Assembly (NCBI GenBank): GCA_024641505.1
Contig: JAHECY010000001.1
Location: forward strand, 124,001-188,000
DNA length: 64,000 bases
Direction: 5' to 3'
Source of the DNA: Gammaproteobacteria bacterium
GTDB taxonomy: Bacteria; Pseudomonadota; Gammaproteobacteria; SG8-11
Shown: piece after piece, positions 2,265 to 28,852 of the stretch
Position numbering within the stretch: position 1 is the first letter of the stretch
Layout: each line of letters opens with the position of its first letter
Notes under the pieces: model-generated
The model's input: only the letters and a program-made list of their open reading frames with translations
The model's database searches: none
What the model was told of the DNA's origin: nothing
Translations under genes and position numbers: made by a program

Positions 2265-4286
2265 ATGAGTATTGATATCAGTCAATTTTTGCATACCTTC
2301 TTTGAGGAAAGCTTTGAAGGTTTGGATGCGATGGAAAACAACTTGCTGCATATGGACGTGAATTCCTGCGATGTAGAAGAAATCAATACCATCTTTCGTG
2401 TAGCTCATTCGGTCAAAGGCGGCGCGGCGACATTCGGTTTGAAGGCCGTAGCGGAATTTACCCATTCGATGGAAACCCTGCTGGATCAGATACGTGGGGG
2501 TGAAAAAACATTGAGCGATGAGGGGGTTGACGTTTTATTACGCTCGGTAGATGTTTTACGTTCCATGTTGGCAAATTCAAAAGCGGGAAACGAGCTTGAC
2601 TTTATTGAAAGTGAAGAAATAAAAAAGCGGCTGGATGAATTGCTTGACAAGGGGTCAAGTAAAAAGACTGTTATGAAACCCGTCGTGGAAAGAAAAGATG
2701 ATCAACAGATTACCAATTGGGAAATTAAGTTTATCCCCGAAACAGGGTTGTTTAAGAGCGGTAATGACCCGGTGCGGATGTTCAGGGGGCTGTCTGAATT
2801 GGGAATCATGGAAGCCACAGTAAACGCAGAATCACTTCCTGATTTTGAATCTTTGAACCCAGAGGAGTGTCATCTGAGTTGGGATATCACAATCAGCGGT
2901 AAGATCAGTAAAGAGCAAATAGCAGAGATATTCGAGTGGGTAGCAGACGATTGTAAACTCACGATAACTTCCGTAGAGGAAGAAGCAACAGCGCAGCTCG
3001 TAGAAAATATGGTTCCGGAAGATGTAAAAATAGTAGTTCCGATTGTAAAGCCCATGCCTGGCAAGGAAGGACGTGCAACTCAGACAGAATCCGCTTCGAT
3101 TCGCGTTAGTATCGACAAAGTTGATGATCTTATTAACATGGTTGGAGAATTGGTTATCACACAATCCATGCTCGGGCAACTTGGGCAGGATTTTGAAATG
3201 TCTAAAATCGAAAAGTTATCCGATGGCCTGGCTCAGTTGGAACGAAACACCCGAGAGCTCCAGGAAAGTGTGATGCGTATCCGTATGTTACCGATTAGTT
3301 TTGTATTTCAGAGGTTTCCACGAATAGTGCGCGATCTAAGTACCAAACTCGGTAAGAAAGTAGAATTAATTATGAATGGGGAAAGCACCGAACTGGATAA
3401 AACGGTGATGGAAAAAATAGGTGACCCGTTGGTGCATCTGGTACGAAATTCTCTTGACCATGGTATTGAGATGCCGGAGATGCGGCGAAAATCCGGTAAA
3501 GACGAAATCGGCCTGATAACTCTGAATGCGTTTCACCAAGGCGGTAACATTGTTATCGAAATTATCGATGATGGTAAGGGACTGGACAAAGCTAAGATTC
3601 TGGAAAAGGCCAGGGCTCGTGGTTTGGTTGGAAGCGATGAGGATTTTGGGGATGACAAGGTAGCAGATTTAATTTTTGCGCCAGGGTTGTCAACTGCGGA
3701 GGTCGTCAGTGACGTATCCGGGCGCGGTGTCGGCATGGATGTGGTACGGAAAAATATTAAATCATTAGGCGGGAATGTTGAGGTGCGAACCGAAGCCGGC
3801 AAGGGCAGTAGGTTCACCATTCGGTTACCGTTAACGCTGGCGATCCTGGATGGTCAGTTGGTCCGGGTTGGTGAGGAAACTTACATTGTACCGTTGGTTT
3901 CAATAATAGAGACTCTGCAAATCAAGAAAAAATATATCAACGACATCGCCGGCAAAGCGCAGATGTACCGACTGCGCGAAGATTATATTCCAATTATTCG
4001 TCTTTATCAGTCGTTTGGATTGAAGCCGGATCAAGAGCATCTTGAAAATGGTCTGTTGGTTGTGGTTGAAGGTGATGGGCAAAAAGCCGGCCTGTTCGTC
4101 GATGATTTATTGAGTCAGCAGCAAGTAGTAATAAAAAGTCTGGAAACGAATTTTCAAAAAGTACAGGGTCTCTCGGGAGCGACTATTCTGGGAGATGGTA
4201 CGGTCGCATTGATACTTGATATATCGGGATTATTGGCTTCTGCAAAAGACAGTGCTCAGATGCAAGCCTCCGGCGCGGCGGCCTAG
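2265..4286 (+). CDS. cheA: Chemotaxis histidine kinase CheA (cluster 1, with P2 domain)
   Basis: Sensor kinase of 673 residues with all five classical modules. P1 has the phospho-accepting His48 in AHSVKGGAATFG. A folded P2-like CheY-binding segment lies at about 148-245 (starting WEIKFIPETGLF). P3 dimerisation starts near 275. P4 kinase has the N box HLVRNSLDHGIE, G1 DDGKGLD and G2 GRGVGMDVV. The P5 CheW-like domain begins near 526. GGAG precedes ATG 2265 by about 16 bases. Inside the cell it should form an array with the CheW that follows it and with receptors encoded elsewhere. The second CheA in the window lacks P2, so the two kinases probably find their regulators differently. Confidence 0.96.
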   Translation: MSIDISQFLHTFFEESFEGLDAMENNLLHMDVNSCDVEEINTIFRVAHSVKGGAATFGLKAVAEFTHSMETLLDQIRGGEKTLSDEGVDVLLRSVDVLRSMLANSKAGNELDFIESEEIKKRLDELLDKGSSKKTVMKPVVERKDDQQITNWEIKFIPETGLFKSGNDPVRMFRGLSELGIMEATVNAESLPDFESLNPEECHLSWDITISGKISKEQIAEIFEWVADDCKLTITSVEEEATAQLVENMVPEDVKIVVPIVKPMPGKEGRATQTESASIRVSIDKVDDLINMVGELVITQSMLGQLGQDFEMSKIEKLSDGLAQLERNTRELQESVMRIRMLPISFVFQRFPRIVRDLSTKLGKKVELIMNGESTELDKTVMEKIGDPLVHLVRNSLDHGIEMPEMRRKSGKDEIGLITLNAFHQGGNIVIEIIDDGKGLDKAKILEKARARGLVGSDEDFGDDKVADLIFAPGLSTAEVVSDVSGRGVGMDVVRKNIKSLGGNVEVRTEAGKGSRFTIRLPLTLAILDGQLVRVGEETYIVPLVSIIETLQIKKKYINDIAGKAQMYRLREDYIPIIRLYQSFGLKPDQEHLENGLLVVVEGDGQKAGLFVDDLLSQQQVVIKSLETNFQKVQGLSGATILGDGTVALILDISGLLASAKDSAQMQASGAAA

Positions 4287-12354: not shown

Positions 12355-13338
12355 ATGGCGGTAAATGACCTCTTGTCGCAAGATGAAATCGACGCTTTGC
12401 TGCACGGCGTCGACAACGGTGACATCGGTGCCGGAGGTGAAGCGGGCACGGAGGGCAAGGTTCAACAGTATGATTTTGCCAGTCAGGACCGGATTGTTCG
12501 CGGGCGTATGCCCACCCTGGAAATGATCAACGAAAGATTCGCGCGTTATTTTCGTATCAGTCTGTTCAATCTGCTGCGCCGCACGCCGGAAATCTCGGTC
12601 GGTGGTGTGCAGATGCTGAAATTCGCCGAATATGTACATTCACTCTTTGTTCCCACCAGCTTGAATTTGACGCGAATTCCCCCCTTGCGCGGCAGTGCGC
12701 TGGTGGTGTTCGATCCGAAGCTGGTTTTTTCCGTGGTGGAGAACTTTTTTGGTGGCGATGGCCGGTTTCACGCGAAGATCGAAGGTCGAGAATTCACGCA
12801 GACTGAAATGCGAGTGGTTACTTTGATGCTGGAAGGTGTTTATAAAAACATGAAAGAAGCCTGGGCGCCGGTGTTGGATGTGGAATTTCAGTACCTCAAT
12901 ACCGAGGTCAATCCGCATTTCGCCAATATTGTAAGCCCGACGGAAGTGGTTGTGGTCAGTACATTTCACATTGAATTGGAGGGTGGTGGTGGCGATCTTC
13001 ATGTCACCATGCCTTATTCCATGCTCGAACCGATGCGGGAATTGCTGGATGCCGGCATCCAAAGTGACCGTACAGAAAATGATGAACGTTGGATTAACGC
13101 ATTACGCGAGGATGTTGGTAATGCCCGGGTGGAGTTGGCGGTAAAGCTGTCACACACCGAGTTGACGTTGCGAGAGATCCTTGACTTGGAGCCGGGAGAT
13201 ATTATTCCCATTGAAATGCCGCAATACCTGCTGGCCAGGGCGGAAGGGGTACCGGTTTTTATCGGTAGGCACGGCGTGCACCGAGGCAATCTGGCAATTC
13301 AAGTGGTGCGGGGTTACATACCCAAGGATGACGCCTGA
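12355..13338 (+). CDS. fliM: Flagellar motor switch protein FliM
   Basis: C-ring protein (327 residues) that binds phosphorylated CheY and reverses rotation. The N-terminal CheY-binding peptide is LLSQDEIDALLHG (residues 6-18). The middle CheC-like domain and the C-terminal SpoA domain (ILDLEPGDIIPIEMP) follow. The N-terminal motif closely resembles three tandem motifs found in the linker of the second CheA in this window. Gene order and length are standard. Confidence 0.97.
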   Translation: MAVNDLLSQDEIDALLHGVDNGDIGAGGEAGTEGKVQQYDFASQDRIVRGRMPTLEMINERFARYFRISLFNLLRRTPEISVGGVQMLKFAEYVHSLFVPTSLNLTRIPPLRGSALVVFDPKLVFSVVENFFGGDGRFHAKIEGREFTQTEMRVVTLMLEGVYKNMKEAWAPVLDVEFQYLNTEVNPHFANIVSPTEVVVVSTFHIELEGGGGDLHVTMPYSMLEPMRELLDAGIQSDRTENDERWINALREDVGNARVELAVKLSHTELTLREILDLEPGDIIPIEMPQYLLARAEGVPVFIGRHGVHRGNLAIQVVRGYIPKDDA

Positions 13339-22493: not shown

Positions 22494-22892
22494 ATGCCGT
22501 TGAATAAAGATATGCGCATCTTAGTCGTTGATGACTTCTCGACGATGCGGCGAATCATCAAGAATCTGCTGCGTGATCTTGGCCTCAACAATACTCAGGA
22601 GGCGGATGACGGTTTGACTGCTTTGCCGATGTTGCAGGCCGGTGGCTTTGACTTTTTGATTACCGATTGGAATATGCCCGGTATGCAAGGCATTGATTTG
22701 TTGCGTGCGGTACGTGCCGACGCGCAATTGAAATCTCTTCCGGTATTAATGGTTACGGCGGAGCAGAAACGCGAACAGATCATCACTGCAGCGGAAGCAG
22801 GGGTGAATGGCTATATTGTTAAGCCGTTTACCGCAGTGACGCTGAAAGAAAAGATCGACAAAATATTCGCGCGTGTCGACGCTGCCAAGTAA
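22494..22892 (+). CDS. cheY: Chemotaxis response regulator CheY (cluster 2, flagellar motor type)
   Basis: Receiver protein of 132 residues close to the CheY of enterics and pseudomonads: [23 protein letters not shown], phospho-acceptor in [12 protein letters not shown], Thr in VLMVTAEQ and Lys in YIVKPF. This is the form expected to bind FliM and change motor direction. The called ATG has GGAG only one base upstream; a TTG six bases later (22500) has ideal spacing and would give MNKDMRIL, so the true start may be there. Normally cheZ follows; here cheA does. Confidence 0.95.
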
Positions 22893-23069
22893 CGCAAATG
22901 CCACGTTGGTGCAGCACACGCAAATACGATACACGTTAGTTATCAAATCGGGGAAGTCGCATGGCGCTGCATGTCATGATTGGCTGGCGGACCATTAACA
23001 TGTTTTATGAGAGCACGGTTGCATGCGCGGCCATAAGCGACACAGATTCGTAGAGAATCCGAGGTAACC

Positions 23070-25268
23070 ATGGGATTGGATGCGGATCATGAATTGTTGG
23101 GTGACTTTCTCACGGAAGCTGGAGAAATTCTCGATTTGTTGAATGAACAACTGGTCGATCTTGAACACCGTCCAGATGATCATGCGCTGCTAAATGCGGT
23201 GTTCCGCGGATTCCACACTATTAAGGGTGGTGCCGGATTTTTGCAATTGCACGCGATCGTCGCGGTTTGTCATCGGGCGGAAGACGTTTTTAACCTGTTG
23301 CGTAACGGTGTGCGGCAGGTGAATGCAGAACTCATGGACGTGATTTTGCCGGTACTGGATGTCGTTAACAACCAGTTTGCCAGTTTGCGCGCCGGCGAGA
23401 ATCCGGTGCATGCTCCGGATTCATTAATTTCGGCACTCGAACAACTGTCCAAACCGCCCCAGGCACCGCCTGAGACGCAGTCAGGCGCCGGAGCAGACGT
23501 CAGCGATCCCGTGGACCAGGAGTTTGAACAATTGCTGGCGGCTGCGGAGGTTCCAGCGTCGGCTGTTCCTGCCGACAATAATCCGCCAGCGCAATTGGCG
23601 ACAATTTCCAGTGACGATATATCAGAAGATGAATTTGACGCGTTGTTGGATGAATTGCATGGCAGGGGTGGCGCTCCCGGCAGCGCTGTAATTTCCCACG
23701 GCGCGGAAACCAGCGACGACATAACGGAAGCGGAGTTTGACGCCCTGTTGGACCAGTTACACGGGTCATCCGGTGTGCCCGGAAAGATAGATAATACCGC
23801 GCGCATTTCGACCCCGCTTTCGCCGGTTAAGCCCTCGATGCCGGTGGCCGCGTCAACCGCAGATATTTCCGAGGCGGAATTCGATGCCCTGTTGGATAGC
23901 CTCCATGGAAAAAGCGGCGTTCCGGGCGCAGACCGGGGTATTGCCGGAGATCCGACTCCCGCCAGTAAACCAGCGCCCCCGGTACCGTCAGCGGTAACTC
24001 GACCTGCGGTAACCGCGAGCACTCGAAATCCGGTCCAGCCCGAACACGCAGGTAAGACTGCCCCCGGCAACACCCATGACGCCAGCAGTGCCGCGCAAGC
24101 GGACAACAGTATTCGGGTCGATACCAGGCGCCTGGATCATATTATGAATTTGGTCGGTGAACTGGTACTGGTACGGAATCGCATATCGACATTAGAAAGC
24201 AGTCGTATAGATGACGTTACCGCGAAGGTGGTCGCGAATCTCGATATTGTTACGTCCGATTTACATGCAGCGGTGATGAAAACGCGCATGCAACCCGTGA
24301 AAAAAGTTTTCGGCCGGTTCCCGCGCGTGGTACGCGATCTGTCGCGTACTCTGAAAAAGCAGGTACAACTTGAATTGGTGGGTGAAGAGACGGACCTGGA
24401 TAAAAATCTGGTTGATGCGCTTGCCGATCCACTGGTGCATTTAGTACGCAACGCGGTTGACCACGGTATCGAAATTCCGGAAGTGCGAGAACGCGCCGGC
24501 AAACCGTCGATGGGAACGGTAATTCTGGCAGCCCGCCAAGAGGGGGATCACATCTTATTGTCGATCCAGGACGACGGTGCGGGCATCGATGCGGAAAAAC
24601 TTCGACAAAAGGTTGTCGAGAAAGGCTTAATGGATGAAGTGGCGGCGCAACGTCTGGATAAGAAAGATTGCTTCAATCTGATTTTCATGCCGGGATTTTC
24701 CACGAAAGAAGAAATTTCCGATGTCTCCGGGCGCGGCGTGGGCATGGATGTGGTACGCAGTCGAATAAATCAACTCAATGGTTCGGTTGATATTGATTCC
24801 ACCGTCGGCATGGGTACCACGCTCACCATTAAGGTGCCACTGACGCTGGCTATCATGCCAACATTGATGGTGCATCTTGGCGCACAGGTTTATGCACTGC
24901 CCTTGGTGAATGTCAACGAAATACTGAACATAGACCTGACCCGTACCAATAAAGTGGATGGCCAGGAGGTGGTGCTGGTACGCGACCGGGTGTTGCCGGT
25001 GTTTTATTTGGCTCGTTGGTTGTCGACGCAACGCGCGGTCAGCCATTTTCCCCACGAGGGGCATGTGGTGGTGGTCAATATTGGAAGCCAGCAAATTGGA
25101 TTGGTGGTGGATGACTTAATCGGTCAGGAAGAGGTGGTAATAAAACCGCTGGGCCCCATGCTGCAAAGAATCAGGGGATTGGCAGGCGCCACGATCACCG
25201 GCAATGGACGAGTGGCCCTGATTTTGGATCTACAGGAACTCTTGACTGTGCACGCAGTGGCGGGCTAA
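23070..25268 (+). CDS. cheA: Chemotaxis histidine kinase CheA (cluster 2, no P2, FliM-like repeats in linker)
   Basis: Kinase of 732 residues. The P1 domain carries His49 in FHTIKGGAGFL. P3 starts near 347 (SIRVDTRRLDHIMNLVGELV), P4 has HLVRNAVDHGIEIPE, DDGAGIDAE and GRGVGMDVV, and P5 starts near 596. Between about 125 and 345 no folded P2 domain is seen. Instead there is a Pro/Ala/Ser-rich linker with three copies of a motif like ISEAEFDALLDSLHGKSGVPG, at about residues 182, 216 and 265, and a weaker fourth (DQEFEQLL) near 150. Related motifs occur in pseudomonad CheAs. Their likeness to the FliM CheY-binding peptide suggests that they dock response regulators. Confidence 0.96.
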   Translation: MGLDADHELLGDFLTEAGEILDLLNEQLVDLEHRPDDHALLNAVFRGFHTIKGGAGFLQLHAIVAVCHRAEDVFNLLRNGVRQVNAELMDVILPVLDVVNNQFASLRAGENPVHAPDSLISALEQLSKPPQAPPETQSGAGADVSDPVDQEFEQLLAAAEVPASAVPADNNPPAQLATISSDDISEDEFDALLDELHGRGGAPGSAVISHGAETSDDITEAEFDALLDQLHGSSGVPGKIDNTARISTPLSPVKPSMPVAASTADISEAEFDALLDSLHGKSGVPGADRGIAGDPTPASKPAPPVPSAVTRPAVTASTRNPVQPEHAGKTAPGNTHDASSAAQADNSIRVDTRRLDHIMNLVGELVLVRNRISTLESSRIDDVTAKVVANLDIVTSDLHAAVMKTRMQPVKKVFGRFPRVVRDLSRTLKKQVQLELVGEETDLDKNLVDALADPLVHLVRNAVDHGIEIPEVRERAGKPSMGTVILAARQEGDHILLSIQDDGAGIDAEKLRQKVVEKGLMDEVAAQRLDKKDCFNLIFMPGFSTKEEISDVSGRGVGMDVVRSRINQLNGSVDIDSTVGMGTTLTIKVPLTLAIMPTLMVHLGAQVYALPLVNVNEILNIDLTRTNKVDGQEVVLVRDRVLPVFYLARWLSTQRAVSHFPHEGHVVVVNIGSQQIGLVVDDLIGQEEVVIKPLGPMLQRIRGLAGATITGNGRVALILDLQELLTVHAVAG
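23613..23927 (+). repeat. Three coding repeats in the cheA linker
   Basis: Three units of about 66-69 bases (near 23613-23681, 23715-23783 and 23862-23927), each coding for D-(I)-(S/T)-E-x-E-F-D-A-L-L-D-x-L-H-G followed by a Gly/Pro-rich turn. The spacers differ in length and sequence, and codon choice differs between copies. The peptide is therefore conserved rather than freshly duplicated. Confidence 0.85.
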
Positions 25269-26097: not shown

Positions 26098-26892
26098 ATG
26101 CGACGCAGACAAAGACTGGAGGAAGAATCGAATCGCGACCGCTGGTTGATATCCTACGCGGATTTCATCACGCTGCTATTTGCATTCTTTGTGGTGATGT
26201 ACTCGATTTCTTCGGTAAATGAGGGCAAGTATCGGGTGCTTTCAGATTCCATCGTGCGTGCGTTCAGCGCGGATGCCAGCAATCTGGTGCCGGCACCGGC
26301 GGCGGAAAGCCGGGTGTCGGATCAAGCTCTGGCACCGGTGCCGCAAATTGTGCCGATACCGGCGCGACCATTGCAAGAGAGTCTGTCACAGAAAGCGTTA
26401 AAAATGAATGCCATGCAGCAACTGGCAGAGCAAGTAAGTTCCGGCTTCGACGACCTGGTAGTACGTGGTTTGATAAGCGTGGATCGTAACAAGGATTCTA
26501 TCGTCGTGGAAATCAACTCGGAACTGTTATTTGCCATTGGTAGTGCGACGCTGTTTTCGGCGGCTGTGGATATCCTGTCCCGAACCGCTGCCACGCTGGC
26601 AAAGAATACTCTATATATAGAGGTAGAAGGTTTTACCGATAACCTGCCGATCCAGACTTCCGTATTTCCGTCGAACTGGGAGTTATCCGCTGCACGTGCC
26701 GCCAGCGTGGTGCACTTGTTCACCAAGCTCGGTATCGACCCGGGGCGCATGGTCGCGGTCGGATATGGAGAGCATCGACCCAAGGTCAGCAATAATACGG
26801 AACAGGGACGCAGGCAAAATCGACGCGTAGTGCTGGTGATATCGAGCAGTCCCCGCAATGCCATACCCAGCCTGGGAATAGATAAGATATGA
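26098..26892 (+). CDS. motD: Flagellar stator protein, MotB family (MotD type)
   Basis: Stator subunit B of 264 residues: basic N-terminus, one membrane helix containing the ion-binding Asp (LISYADFITLLFAFFVVMYS), a plug/linker region, and the C-terminal OmpA-like peptidoglycan-binding domain (IEVEGFTDNLPIQ, then NWELSAARAASVV and VGYGEHRP). ATG 26098 is chosen because it starts just before the membrane helix and follows AGAG; an in-frame TTG lies further up inside motC. Its stop overlaps the next start as ATGA. Confidence 0.94.
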   Translation: MRRRQRLEEESNRDRWLISYADFITLLFAFFVVMYSISSVNEGKYRVLSDSIVRAFSADASNLVPAPAAESRVSDQALAPVPQIVPIPARPLQESLSQKALKMNAMQQLAEQVSSGFDDLVVRGLISVDRNKDSIVVEINSELLFAIGSATLFSAAVDILSRTAATLAKNTLYIEVEGFTDNLPIQTSVFPSNWELSAARAASVVHLFTKLGIDPGRMVAVGYGEHRPKVSNNTEQGRRQNRRVVLVISSSPRNAIPSLGIDKI

Positions 26893-27773
26893 CACGGGTA
26901 ATTCATAATGGTGTTGCCGCGCCGGTGGCCGGCAGGGTGCATGATCAAACGGCTTCCGGTACTGTTGGCAAGCAGTTGGCAATGCCCCAAGTATGGACCA
27001 TTGCCAACCAGAAGGGAGGCGTGGGCAAGACCACAACCGTTGTGACGCTTGCTGGCCTGCTTGCCCGACAGGGCAAGCGAGTGTTGATGCTTGACCTGGA
27101 TCCGCAAGGATCCCTGAGCATCTATTTTGATTACAATCCTGAAACCGTCCGTCTCGGGGTCTATGAGTTGTTTATCGCTGATCATGCGCCGGATGCCAAT
27201 GGCGTGCGCAAGCTGGTTCAAGAAACTCATTTCGATAATCTGCAATTGATTCCAGCAACCTGTTCTATGGCGACCCTGGATCGCAAGCTTGGGACCCGTA
27301 CCGGCAAGGGATTGGTGATCAAGGATTGTATTCGCGCATTCGCGGGCATGTATGATCATGTGTTGATCGATTGTTCGCCGTCGCTTGGTATTCTATTGGT
27401 CAACGCGTTAGCTGCCTGCGACCGGATTATTATTCCCGTGCAAACGGAATTTCTCGCAATCAAGGGCTTGGAGCGCATGCTGCACACGCTGACCATGATC
27501 AGCCGTTCGACTGGACGGGAATTACCCTATGTTATTTTGCCCACCATGTATGACAAACGCACCCGAGCCGCGGGCCATAGCTTGGCACAAATCAAGCAAC
27601 AATTCGGCAACAAAGTTTGGGAGCCGGTGATTCCCGTGAACACCGAATTTCGGGAAGCCAGCCGTACCGGTATTCCCCTGTCACTACGTTCACCCCAGGA
27701 TCGAGGCGTTTGTGCCTACCGTGAACTTTGTGATCATTTGTTGCTAGTGGACCGGACAATAGTGGATAAATAG
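26889..27773 (+). CDS. ParA-family ATPase of the polar chemotaxis cluster (ParC-like)
   Basis: ATPase of 294 residues related to Pseudomonas and Vibrio ParC, which brings chemotaxis arrays to the old pole. The P-loop NQKGGVGKTTTVVTLAGLLA is followed by VLMLDLDPQGS and VLIDCSPSLG. The ATGA overlap with motD gives a 31-residue N-terminal extension without similarity to the family; ATG 26982 (MPQVWTIANQKGG) would give the family-typical start. Neither has a strong ribosome site, so coupling from motD favours the longer form and homology the shorter. The next gene is its likely partner. Confidence 0.9.
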   Translation: MTRVIHNGVAAPVAGRVHDQTASGTVGKQLAMPQVWTIANQKGGVGKTTTVVTLAGLLARQGKRVLMLDLDPQGSLSIYFDYNPETVRLGVYELFIADHAPDANGVRKLVQETHFDNLQLIPATCSMATLDRKLGTRTGKGLVIKDCIRAFAGMYDHVLIDCSPSLGILLVNALAACDRIIIPVQTEFLAIKGLERMLHTLTMISRSTGRELPYVILPTMYDKRTRAAGHSLAQIKQQFGNKVWEPVIPVNTEFREASRTGIPLSLRSPQDRGVCAYRELCDHLLLVDRTIVDK

Positions 27774-27788
27774 GCGGAGACTCGAACA

Positions 27789-28295
27789 ATGATGTATACC
27801 AACGACCGGAGTGATGCGCTGCTGCTGGAATATTTTGATGAACTACTTGGGGGCGAGATTCCGGCGTCCCTTCCGGCAACGACCTCTGAGGACTATCTGA
27901 CATTTTATTGGGGGCGTCTCAAACTGGCGATTCGAAAAGAGGAATTGCGCGGTGTTTGCGAGTTTCCCGAGGATGCCGATCCGTGCATGCTCGGTGCAAT
28001 CGATTACCAGGGGGCAACGGCACGGGTCGTGGACCTCAGTAAGTTATTGCGGCCGGCGGCGGCAAGTTCCAGCCTACGGGCACCCATGGCGCCATACCGG
28101 TGTTTGGTTGTGGTGCAGGGCGGCAAATGGGCGTTGCCTTGCCATCGGATTGGTGGCATGCAGAAAATTCATCCGACGGATATTCGGCAGCGTAGCGACC
28201 GGACCTCACGAGAATGGTTACTTGGTACAAGTTTACGCGAGCAATGTGTGGTATTGGATGTGCCAGCAATAGTTGCTGGTTGTCTCGGAAAATGA
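27789..28295 (+). CDS. CheW-domain protein, ParP-like
   Basis: Protein of 168 residues with one divergent CheW-like domain (DYLTFYWGRLKLAIRKEELRGV, then MLGAIDYQGATARVVDLSKLL). It lies between the ParC-like ATPase and the canonical cheW, the position of ParP in vibrios and of PA1463-type proteins in pseudomonads. ParP links ParC to CheA and receptors through its CheW-like (AIF) domain. It lacks the strong INLRG signature of true CheW, which has IDYQG here. It is shorter than vibrio ParP, having only about 40 residues before the domain. The assignment rests on context plus the degenerate domain. Confidence 0.78.
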   Translation: MMYTNDRSDALLLEYFDELLGGEIPASLPATTSEDYLTFYWGRLKLAIRKEELRGVCEFPEDADPCMLGAIDYQGATARVVDLSKLLRPAAASSSLRAPMAPYRCLVVVQGGKWALPCHRIGGMQKIHPTDIRQRSDRTSREWLLGTSLREQCVVLDVPAIVAGCLGK

Positions 28296-28372: not shown

Positions 28373-28852
28373 ATGGCATTTGGTGATCTGCAACGGAAGG
28401 ACGATCTGGTCTCGCGCTGGGTCACCTTTATGCTGGACAATGAGAAATATTGTATTGATGTCATGCAGGCGCAGGAAGTGTTGCATATGTCGGAAATTAC
28501 TCCTGTGCCCGGGGCACCTCCTTATGTGATTGGCATCATCAACCTGCGCGGCAACGTGGTTACCGTAATCGATACTCGTAAGCGCTTCGGGTTACCGTCC
28601 AAAGATCCAGACGAAATATCACGTATCGTAATCGTCAAGATCAGGGACTGTTATCTCGGCATGCTGGTTGATAGCGTTGCAGATGTCGTGGACTTAAGAC
28701 ACGATGAAATCGAATCTGCGCCCAATGTGGGTAACCGTGCCAGTTCTCAGTTCATTCAAGGGGTGGCAAGTTTACAGGGTGAACTGCTGATCATCATAGA
28801 TCTAGAGAAATTCGTGGTGCAGGATGAACAAAATGATTCCAGCCTGTTTTAA
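28373..28852 (+). CDS. cheW: Chemotaxis coupling protein CheW (cluster 2)
   Basis: Canonical CheW of 159 residues: WVTFMLDNEKYCIDVMQAQEVL, TPVPGAPPYVIGIINLRGNVVTVIDTRKRFG, and a complete C-terminal barrel ending in LLIIIDLEKFV. It should couple the second CheA to membrane receptors at the pole. It differs from the cluster 1 CheW over most of its length, so each array probably has its own adaptor. Confidence 0.96.
   Translation: MAFGDLQRKDDLVSRWVTFMLDNEKYCIDVMQAQEVLHMSEITPVPGAPPYVIGIINLRGNVVTVIDTRKRFGLPSKDPDEISRIVIVKIRDCYLGMLVDSVADVVDLRHDEIESAPNVGNRASSQFIQGVASLQGELLIIIDLEKFVVQDEQNDSSLF

Follow-up and report, generated by a model that had tools for sequence, protein, structure and literature searches.

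Repeated FliM- and CheZ-like peptides in the P2-less linker of an F6-like CheA as probable docking sites for CheY

Introduction

In the chemotaxis kinase CheA, the P2 domain (PF07194 / PF09078) is a folded unit of about 70-90 residues that lies between P1 and P3 and presumably brings CheY to P1. For the E. coli proteins a Kd of 900 uM was reported for isolated P1 and CheY and of 0.5 uM for P2 and CheY (PMC5705603). Because the affinity of P1 for CheY is this low, a kinase lacking P2 would gain from another docking element. In a survey of 13,673 CheA proteins over half were without P2 and the linker was called unstructured (PMC10542144, PMC10782961). The portions of these two papers available to us contain no mention of docking motifs in P2-less linkers and state no answer to how such kinases bring CheY in. 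Moreover, our literature search, which included the letters of the motif described below, found no paper describing these motifs.

Two known kinds of CheY- or ParP-binding element are relevant for the comparison. The first comprises the CheY ligands of the motor protein FliM and of the phosphatase CheZ. The FliM motif bound by CheY-P has been named EIDALL (PMC9126983), and CheY3 of Vibrio cholerae fits and binds FliM (PMC3774744). The second is the localization and inheritance domain (LID), through which Vibrio CheA interacts with the AIF domain of ParP so that the array is anchored at the pole. LID is described as located between P2 and P3 and as confined to CheAs that come with ParC/ParP (PMC5706961, PMC7534058). 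Here we describe the linker of the second CheA encoded in a window of 64,000 nucleotides from a gammaproteobacterial genome (GCA_024641505.1, contig JAHECY010000001.1, positions 124,001 to 188,000) and compare it with these systems.

Results and Discussion

The gene cheA2 (23070..25268, + strand), recognised by its open reading frame and by Pfam, encodes a 732-aa CheA of the polar-flagellum type (F6-like). Pfam places P1 at residues 8-99, P3 at 346-405, P4 at 453-592 and P5 at 599-726. Between P1 and P3 there was no Pfam match, and a profile comparison of the linker with E. coli P2 gave no match either. In line with the first-pass annotation of the window, and with the predicted disorder of the linker, no folded P2 is detectable in CheA2. 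The linker as scored here (aa 128-345, 218 aa) has a high content of Ala, Pro, Ser and Asp; at the site of P2 it offers only linear peptides. Three copies of the motif D-I-[ST]-E-x-E-F-D-A-L-L-D-x-L-H-G, 17 residues each, begin at aa 182, 216 and 264; they had been reported correctly for positions 23610-23930. Repeat 1 (DDISEDEFDALLDELHG; 23613..23663, + strand) spans aa 182-198 with a predicted helix at aa 186-198, and repeat 2 (DDITEAEFDALLDQLHG; 23715..23765, + strand) spans aa 216-232 with a predicted helix at aa 220-230. Repeat 3 (ADISEAEFDALLDSLHG; 23859..23909, + strand), the copy nearest to P3, comprises aa 264-280 with a predicted helix at aa 268-280. A weaker, degenerate fourth copy (DPVDQEFEQLLAAAEVP; 23505..23555, + strand) lies at about aa 146-162 and forms a short helix in the CheY2 fusion model discussed below.

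The best pair of 15-mers within the linker has 13 residues alike, compared with at most 8 in 100 shuffles, and this test excludes a chance origin of the repeats. On the DNA level the repeat pairs are identical at only 38-41 of 63 positions (60-65%), with 9-11 synonymous codon changes in each pair, which shows that the repeats are old and that the peptide has been conserved while the DNA drifted. The back-translated pattern EF[DE]xLL[DE]xLHG matched 85 of 274 gammaproteobacterial genomes, whereas the reversed control pattern had no match among the same 274; in the source genome it hits the three CheA2 sites only. AlphaFold predicts a disordered linker in which each copy forms a separate helix, 11-13 residues long, with block pLDDT values of about 70-83 for these helices. 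In these models the repeats are thus short helices, as are the CheY-binding peptides of the FliM/CheZ type.

The motif is not restricted to the source organism. Within this CheA class 112 complete relatives were scored, and every one of them has it, in one to seven copies. These comprise a locus set (80 relatives fetched, 78 with a readable CheA), in which 78 of 78 carry two to four copies, and an independent sample of 34 complete CheAs drawn evenly across the class, all of which have one to seven copies. The locus search was partly seeded with DISEAEFD; only 2 of the 78 loci contain this string, and the independent sample concurs. Nine further CheAs of this type, reached through their CheY, carry the motif without exception (9/9). 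By comparison, none of 16 CheAs of other classes has it, and several of these possess a P2-like domain. The motif is hence a trait of the whole class of flagellar CheA. CheA proteins of Vibrio and Pseudomonas probably carry similar motifs. The highest copy number was seen in a relative (G033; L084:7051-10254) whose CheA has seven copies spread over a linker about 575 aa long.

The class resembles the F6 type as described in PMC7184735. Relatives share the gene order fliA-cheY-cheZ-cheA-cheB-motCD-parC-parP-cheW, and P3-P5 of CheA2 is 51-71% identical to members of the class as against at most 48% to other full-length CheAs; these two features place CheA2 with the F6 type. We call it F6-like, since the assignment was made by resemblance and not by a class HMM; the domain order fits, and the cluster is without CheZ and CheB. 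In the window this cluster holds no cheB, and no cheZ is present in the gap between cheY2 and cheA2 (22893-23069). Likewise, no CheZ was found in the source genome, which is 99.5% complete, or in one congener searched. A CheX gene is encoded unlinked on another contig of the source genome (G000:C204), and a further MAG (L071:4578-7130) likewise has cheY immediately before cheA, without an intervening cheZ.

The first-pass annotation had compared the repeats with the N-terminal CheY-binding motif of FliM, and this likeness is real. FliM of the window was identified by Pfam and carries the motif LLSQDEIDALLHG (12370..12408, + strand). A BLOSUM profile was built from 29 other FliM N-termini, leaving out FliM of the window, and used to score all 19,216 12-mers of the genes in the window. 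FliM of the window ranked first, followed by repeat 1 (z 5.5) and repeat 3 (z 4.8), while repeat 2 came sixth (z 4.5) after two unrelated peptides. All three repeats (ranks 2, 3 and 6) contain, at the level of sequence, the core [DEQ]-[IVF]-[DE]-x-L-L after [ST]-[QE]. The repeats and the FliM peptide share [LI]-S-[QE]-x-E-[IF]-D-A-L-L in a short helix beside a flexible stretch, and the repeats read EFDALL where FliM has EIDALL. The repeats differ in that they sit in the kinase and not in the motor, have Phe in place of Ile, extend to D-x-L-H-G and occur in several copies. The two unrelated 12-mers scored 24.5 and 24.3, close to the 22.9-30.0 of the repeats, so that one might think of a generic acidic amphipathic linker helix which converged by chance. 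This explanation is hardly credible, as E-F-[DE]-x-L-L is near-invariant across families even though the spacers between the copies diverge.

A second parallel, which was missing from the first-pass annotation, is the CheY-binding tail of CheZ (...SQDQVDDLLDSLGF). The C-terminus of E. coli CheZ reads ASQDQVDDLLDSLGF and repeat 3, for comparison, ISEAEFDALLDSLHG; the CheZ tails from the loci of neighbouring relatives follow QD[DE]VDDLLSSLGF. Common to the repeats and the tail is x-[ST]-[QE]-D-x-[VF]-D-x-L-L-[DS]-x-L-[GH], and the match runs through D-x-L-L-[DS]-x-L-[GH]. The CheZ peptide belongs to a phosphatase and occurs once, at the C-terminus, whereas the CheA copies are internal and repeated, and the Phe of the repeats is Ile or Val in the core of FliM and CheZ. 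Scored against a profile of CheZ tails, repeat 1 takes sixth place and repeats 2 and 3 fall outside the top ten; the CheZ parallel thus rests mainly on side-by-side reading. The earlier proposal of FliM mimicry can accordingly be kept as regards the likeness, with imitation being a way of reading the sequence, and it is widened by the class-wide occurrence, the range of one to seven copies and the CheZ parallel.

The most likely overall interpretation is that the repeats are class-wide, multivalent docking peptides of the FliM/CheZ type with CheY as the partner. Kinases of this class would have no folded P2, and one to seven short helical linker peptides would do its work. The binding site for each of them on the cognate CheY would be the alpha4-beta5-alpha5 face, as it is for FliM and CheZ. 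A subunit would offer three such sites, a dimer six and a polar array many, so that CheY would be concentrated beside phospho-P1, and phosphotransfer would become faster through this docking. After the transfer CheY-P would move off to FliM, which bears the same kind of ligand. We consider it probable that the repeats are multivalent CheY-docking peptides which take the place of P2. What was observed directly is that the repeats exist, are conserved across the class, resemble the FliM and CheZ peptides and are predicted as helices, and that no P2 can be detected; binding of CheY, on that particular face and with an effect on phosphotransfer, is what we infer from this. Points that count against CheY docking are the Phe in the core of the repeats, where FliM and CheZ have Ile or Val, and the preference of the FliM and CheZ peptides for CheY-P, i.e. 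the product and not the substrate of the kinase.

The presumed partner is CheY2 (cheY2; 22494..22892, + strand), which scores above the cut-off of the NCBIfam CheY equivalog. Among solved structures it is nearest to V. cholerae CheY3 (3to5), with 82% identity, and the matches listed in a PDB fold search were all CheY-type structures. In Pseudomonas putida a pull-down with CheA yielded CheY and CheZ (PMC11978298). To model the complex, which the first-pass annotation had proposed, CheY2 was fused to the N-terminal part of CheA by reading through in-frame stops, using an alignment of CheY-(CheZ)-CheA with 25 rows. The model had a pTM of 0.38 and gave no usable placement. It did contain the helices and brought no gain from the tethered CheY2: the repeat helices are as confident without CheY, and AlphaFold thus gives no evidence of docking. 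Owing to the shallow alignment, the model is no argument against docking either. F6 and F7 CheY proteins have been compared at residues facing P1 and P2 (PMC7184735); in a small sample of 19 extra loci, four of these residues (92/94/103/117) did not cleanly track the docking type.

Further support for CheY comes from the partners that can be missing. At least one locus or genome that bears the motif does without CheZ, and the same is true of CheB and of ParC/ParP. In the relative G022 the motif persists, with CheZ lacking from the complete genome and ParC/ParP from the locus (best ParA-family match 33%). Four copies occur in the locus of G001 and two in that of G012, neither of which has a ParC gene; nor has the locus of G010, with two degenerate copies. 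For none of these four relatives does the best ParA-family match exceed 40% identity. CheY, on the other hand, adjoins CheA in the loci reaching far enough upstream. As CheW and receptors are likewise always expected, this elimination argues for CheY, short of proof. The repeats could bind such another part of the array (CheW, receptor tips or P4/P5 of CheA) or regulate the kinase, and the expected presence of CheW and receptors in every system would agree with that. There is no sequence parallel in hand for these partners, whereas one was found for CheY ligands, and we regard this option as improbable.

The main rival to CheY docking is that the repeats are or contain LID. LID of Vibrio CheA, which is defined by its binding to ParP and is compared here by its description, shares with the repeats the linker region and the kind of gene cluster, one that includes ParC and ParP; since the repeats lie in that linker, LID could correspond to a single copy or to the full set. 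A ParC gene is present in most loci that bear the motif, the window among them, and a gene for a ParP-like protein in many. In the window these are a parC-like gene for a ParA-family ATPase (26889..27773, + strand; mostly 47-56% identical to the genes in the parC position of relatives) and a parP-like gene for a short CheW-domain protein of 168 aa (27789..28295, + strand; Pfam CheW, positioned after parC). They are followed by cheW (28373..28852, + strand), an open reading frame whose homologues occupy the corresponding position in relatives. In addition, the P3-proximal copy often has a tail of its own, and consequently may have a separate partner. LID was said to occur only with ParC/ParP; the motif is nevertheless kept in G022, G012 and G001, and in degenerate form in G010, in loci that have no ParC gene. 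Moreover, LID accounts for neither the likeness to FliM and CheZ nor the multiple copies. These findings argue against LID as the general role of the repeats, and we consider this explanation unlikely.

The tail of the P3-proximal copy was observed in Oceanospirillales (L013-L082), where this copy often ends with LQxxGxGAF and not with LHG. From its sequence, this copy may have a separate role in many Oceanospirillales. A combined arrangement is conceivable in which the copies on the P1 side serve as docking sites for the receivers of CheY, and also of CheB or CheV, while ParP is bound by the P3-proximal copy. The differing third-copy tail in many Oceanospirillales and the variation from one to seven copies would fit; the third copy resembles the others in the window and in Sedimenticola, and such a division of labour appears rather less probable than LID itself.

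A conserved, repeated peptide in a large class of flagellar CheAs offers a direct and testable answer to how CheY is recruited without P2. If CheY docking holds true, kinase and motor share one type of ligand, which bears on the hand-off of the signal and on the separation of parallel pathways. For the F6 class as a whole, we see an even chance that CheY is docked through multivalent motifs of the FliM/CheZ type. Kinase, phosphatase and motor would then compete for one face of CheY, as all of them use variants of one peptide; the number (1-7) and sequence of the motifs would set the hold on CheY, and pathway specificity would lie in peptide versus folded P2. Taken together, the earlier interpretation is partly supported and widened: the repeats and the FliM likeness stand, and CheY docking is their most likely role.

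The other chemotaxis cluster of the window contains cheA1 (2265..4286, + strand), for which a normal P2 had been claimed. This is plausible, because the product is collinear with and 45% identical to E. coli CheA and has a conserved domain of about 90 aa at the place of P2 (about aa 150-245). Formal detection of this P2-like domain was weak (hhalign E 0.02, probability 2%); Pfam gave no P2 match, and a PDB sequence search with the profile of the cluster 1 P2 found no P2. Besides, the ParP-like protein of the cheA2 cluster, with 168 aa compared with 203-286 in relatives, apparently lacks the long linker. Its N-terminus (SDALLLEYFDELLGGE) fits the conserved ParP motif ALxxYLDxLL, which is faintly like the CheA repeats.
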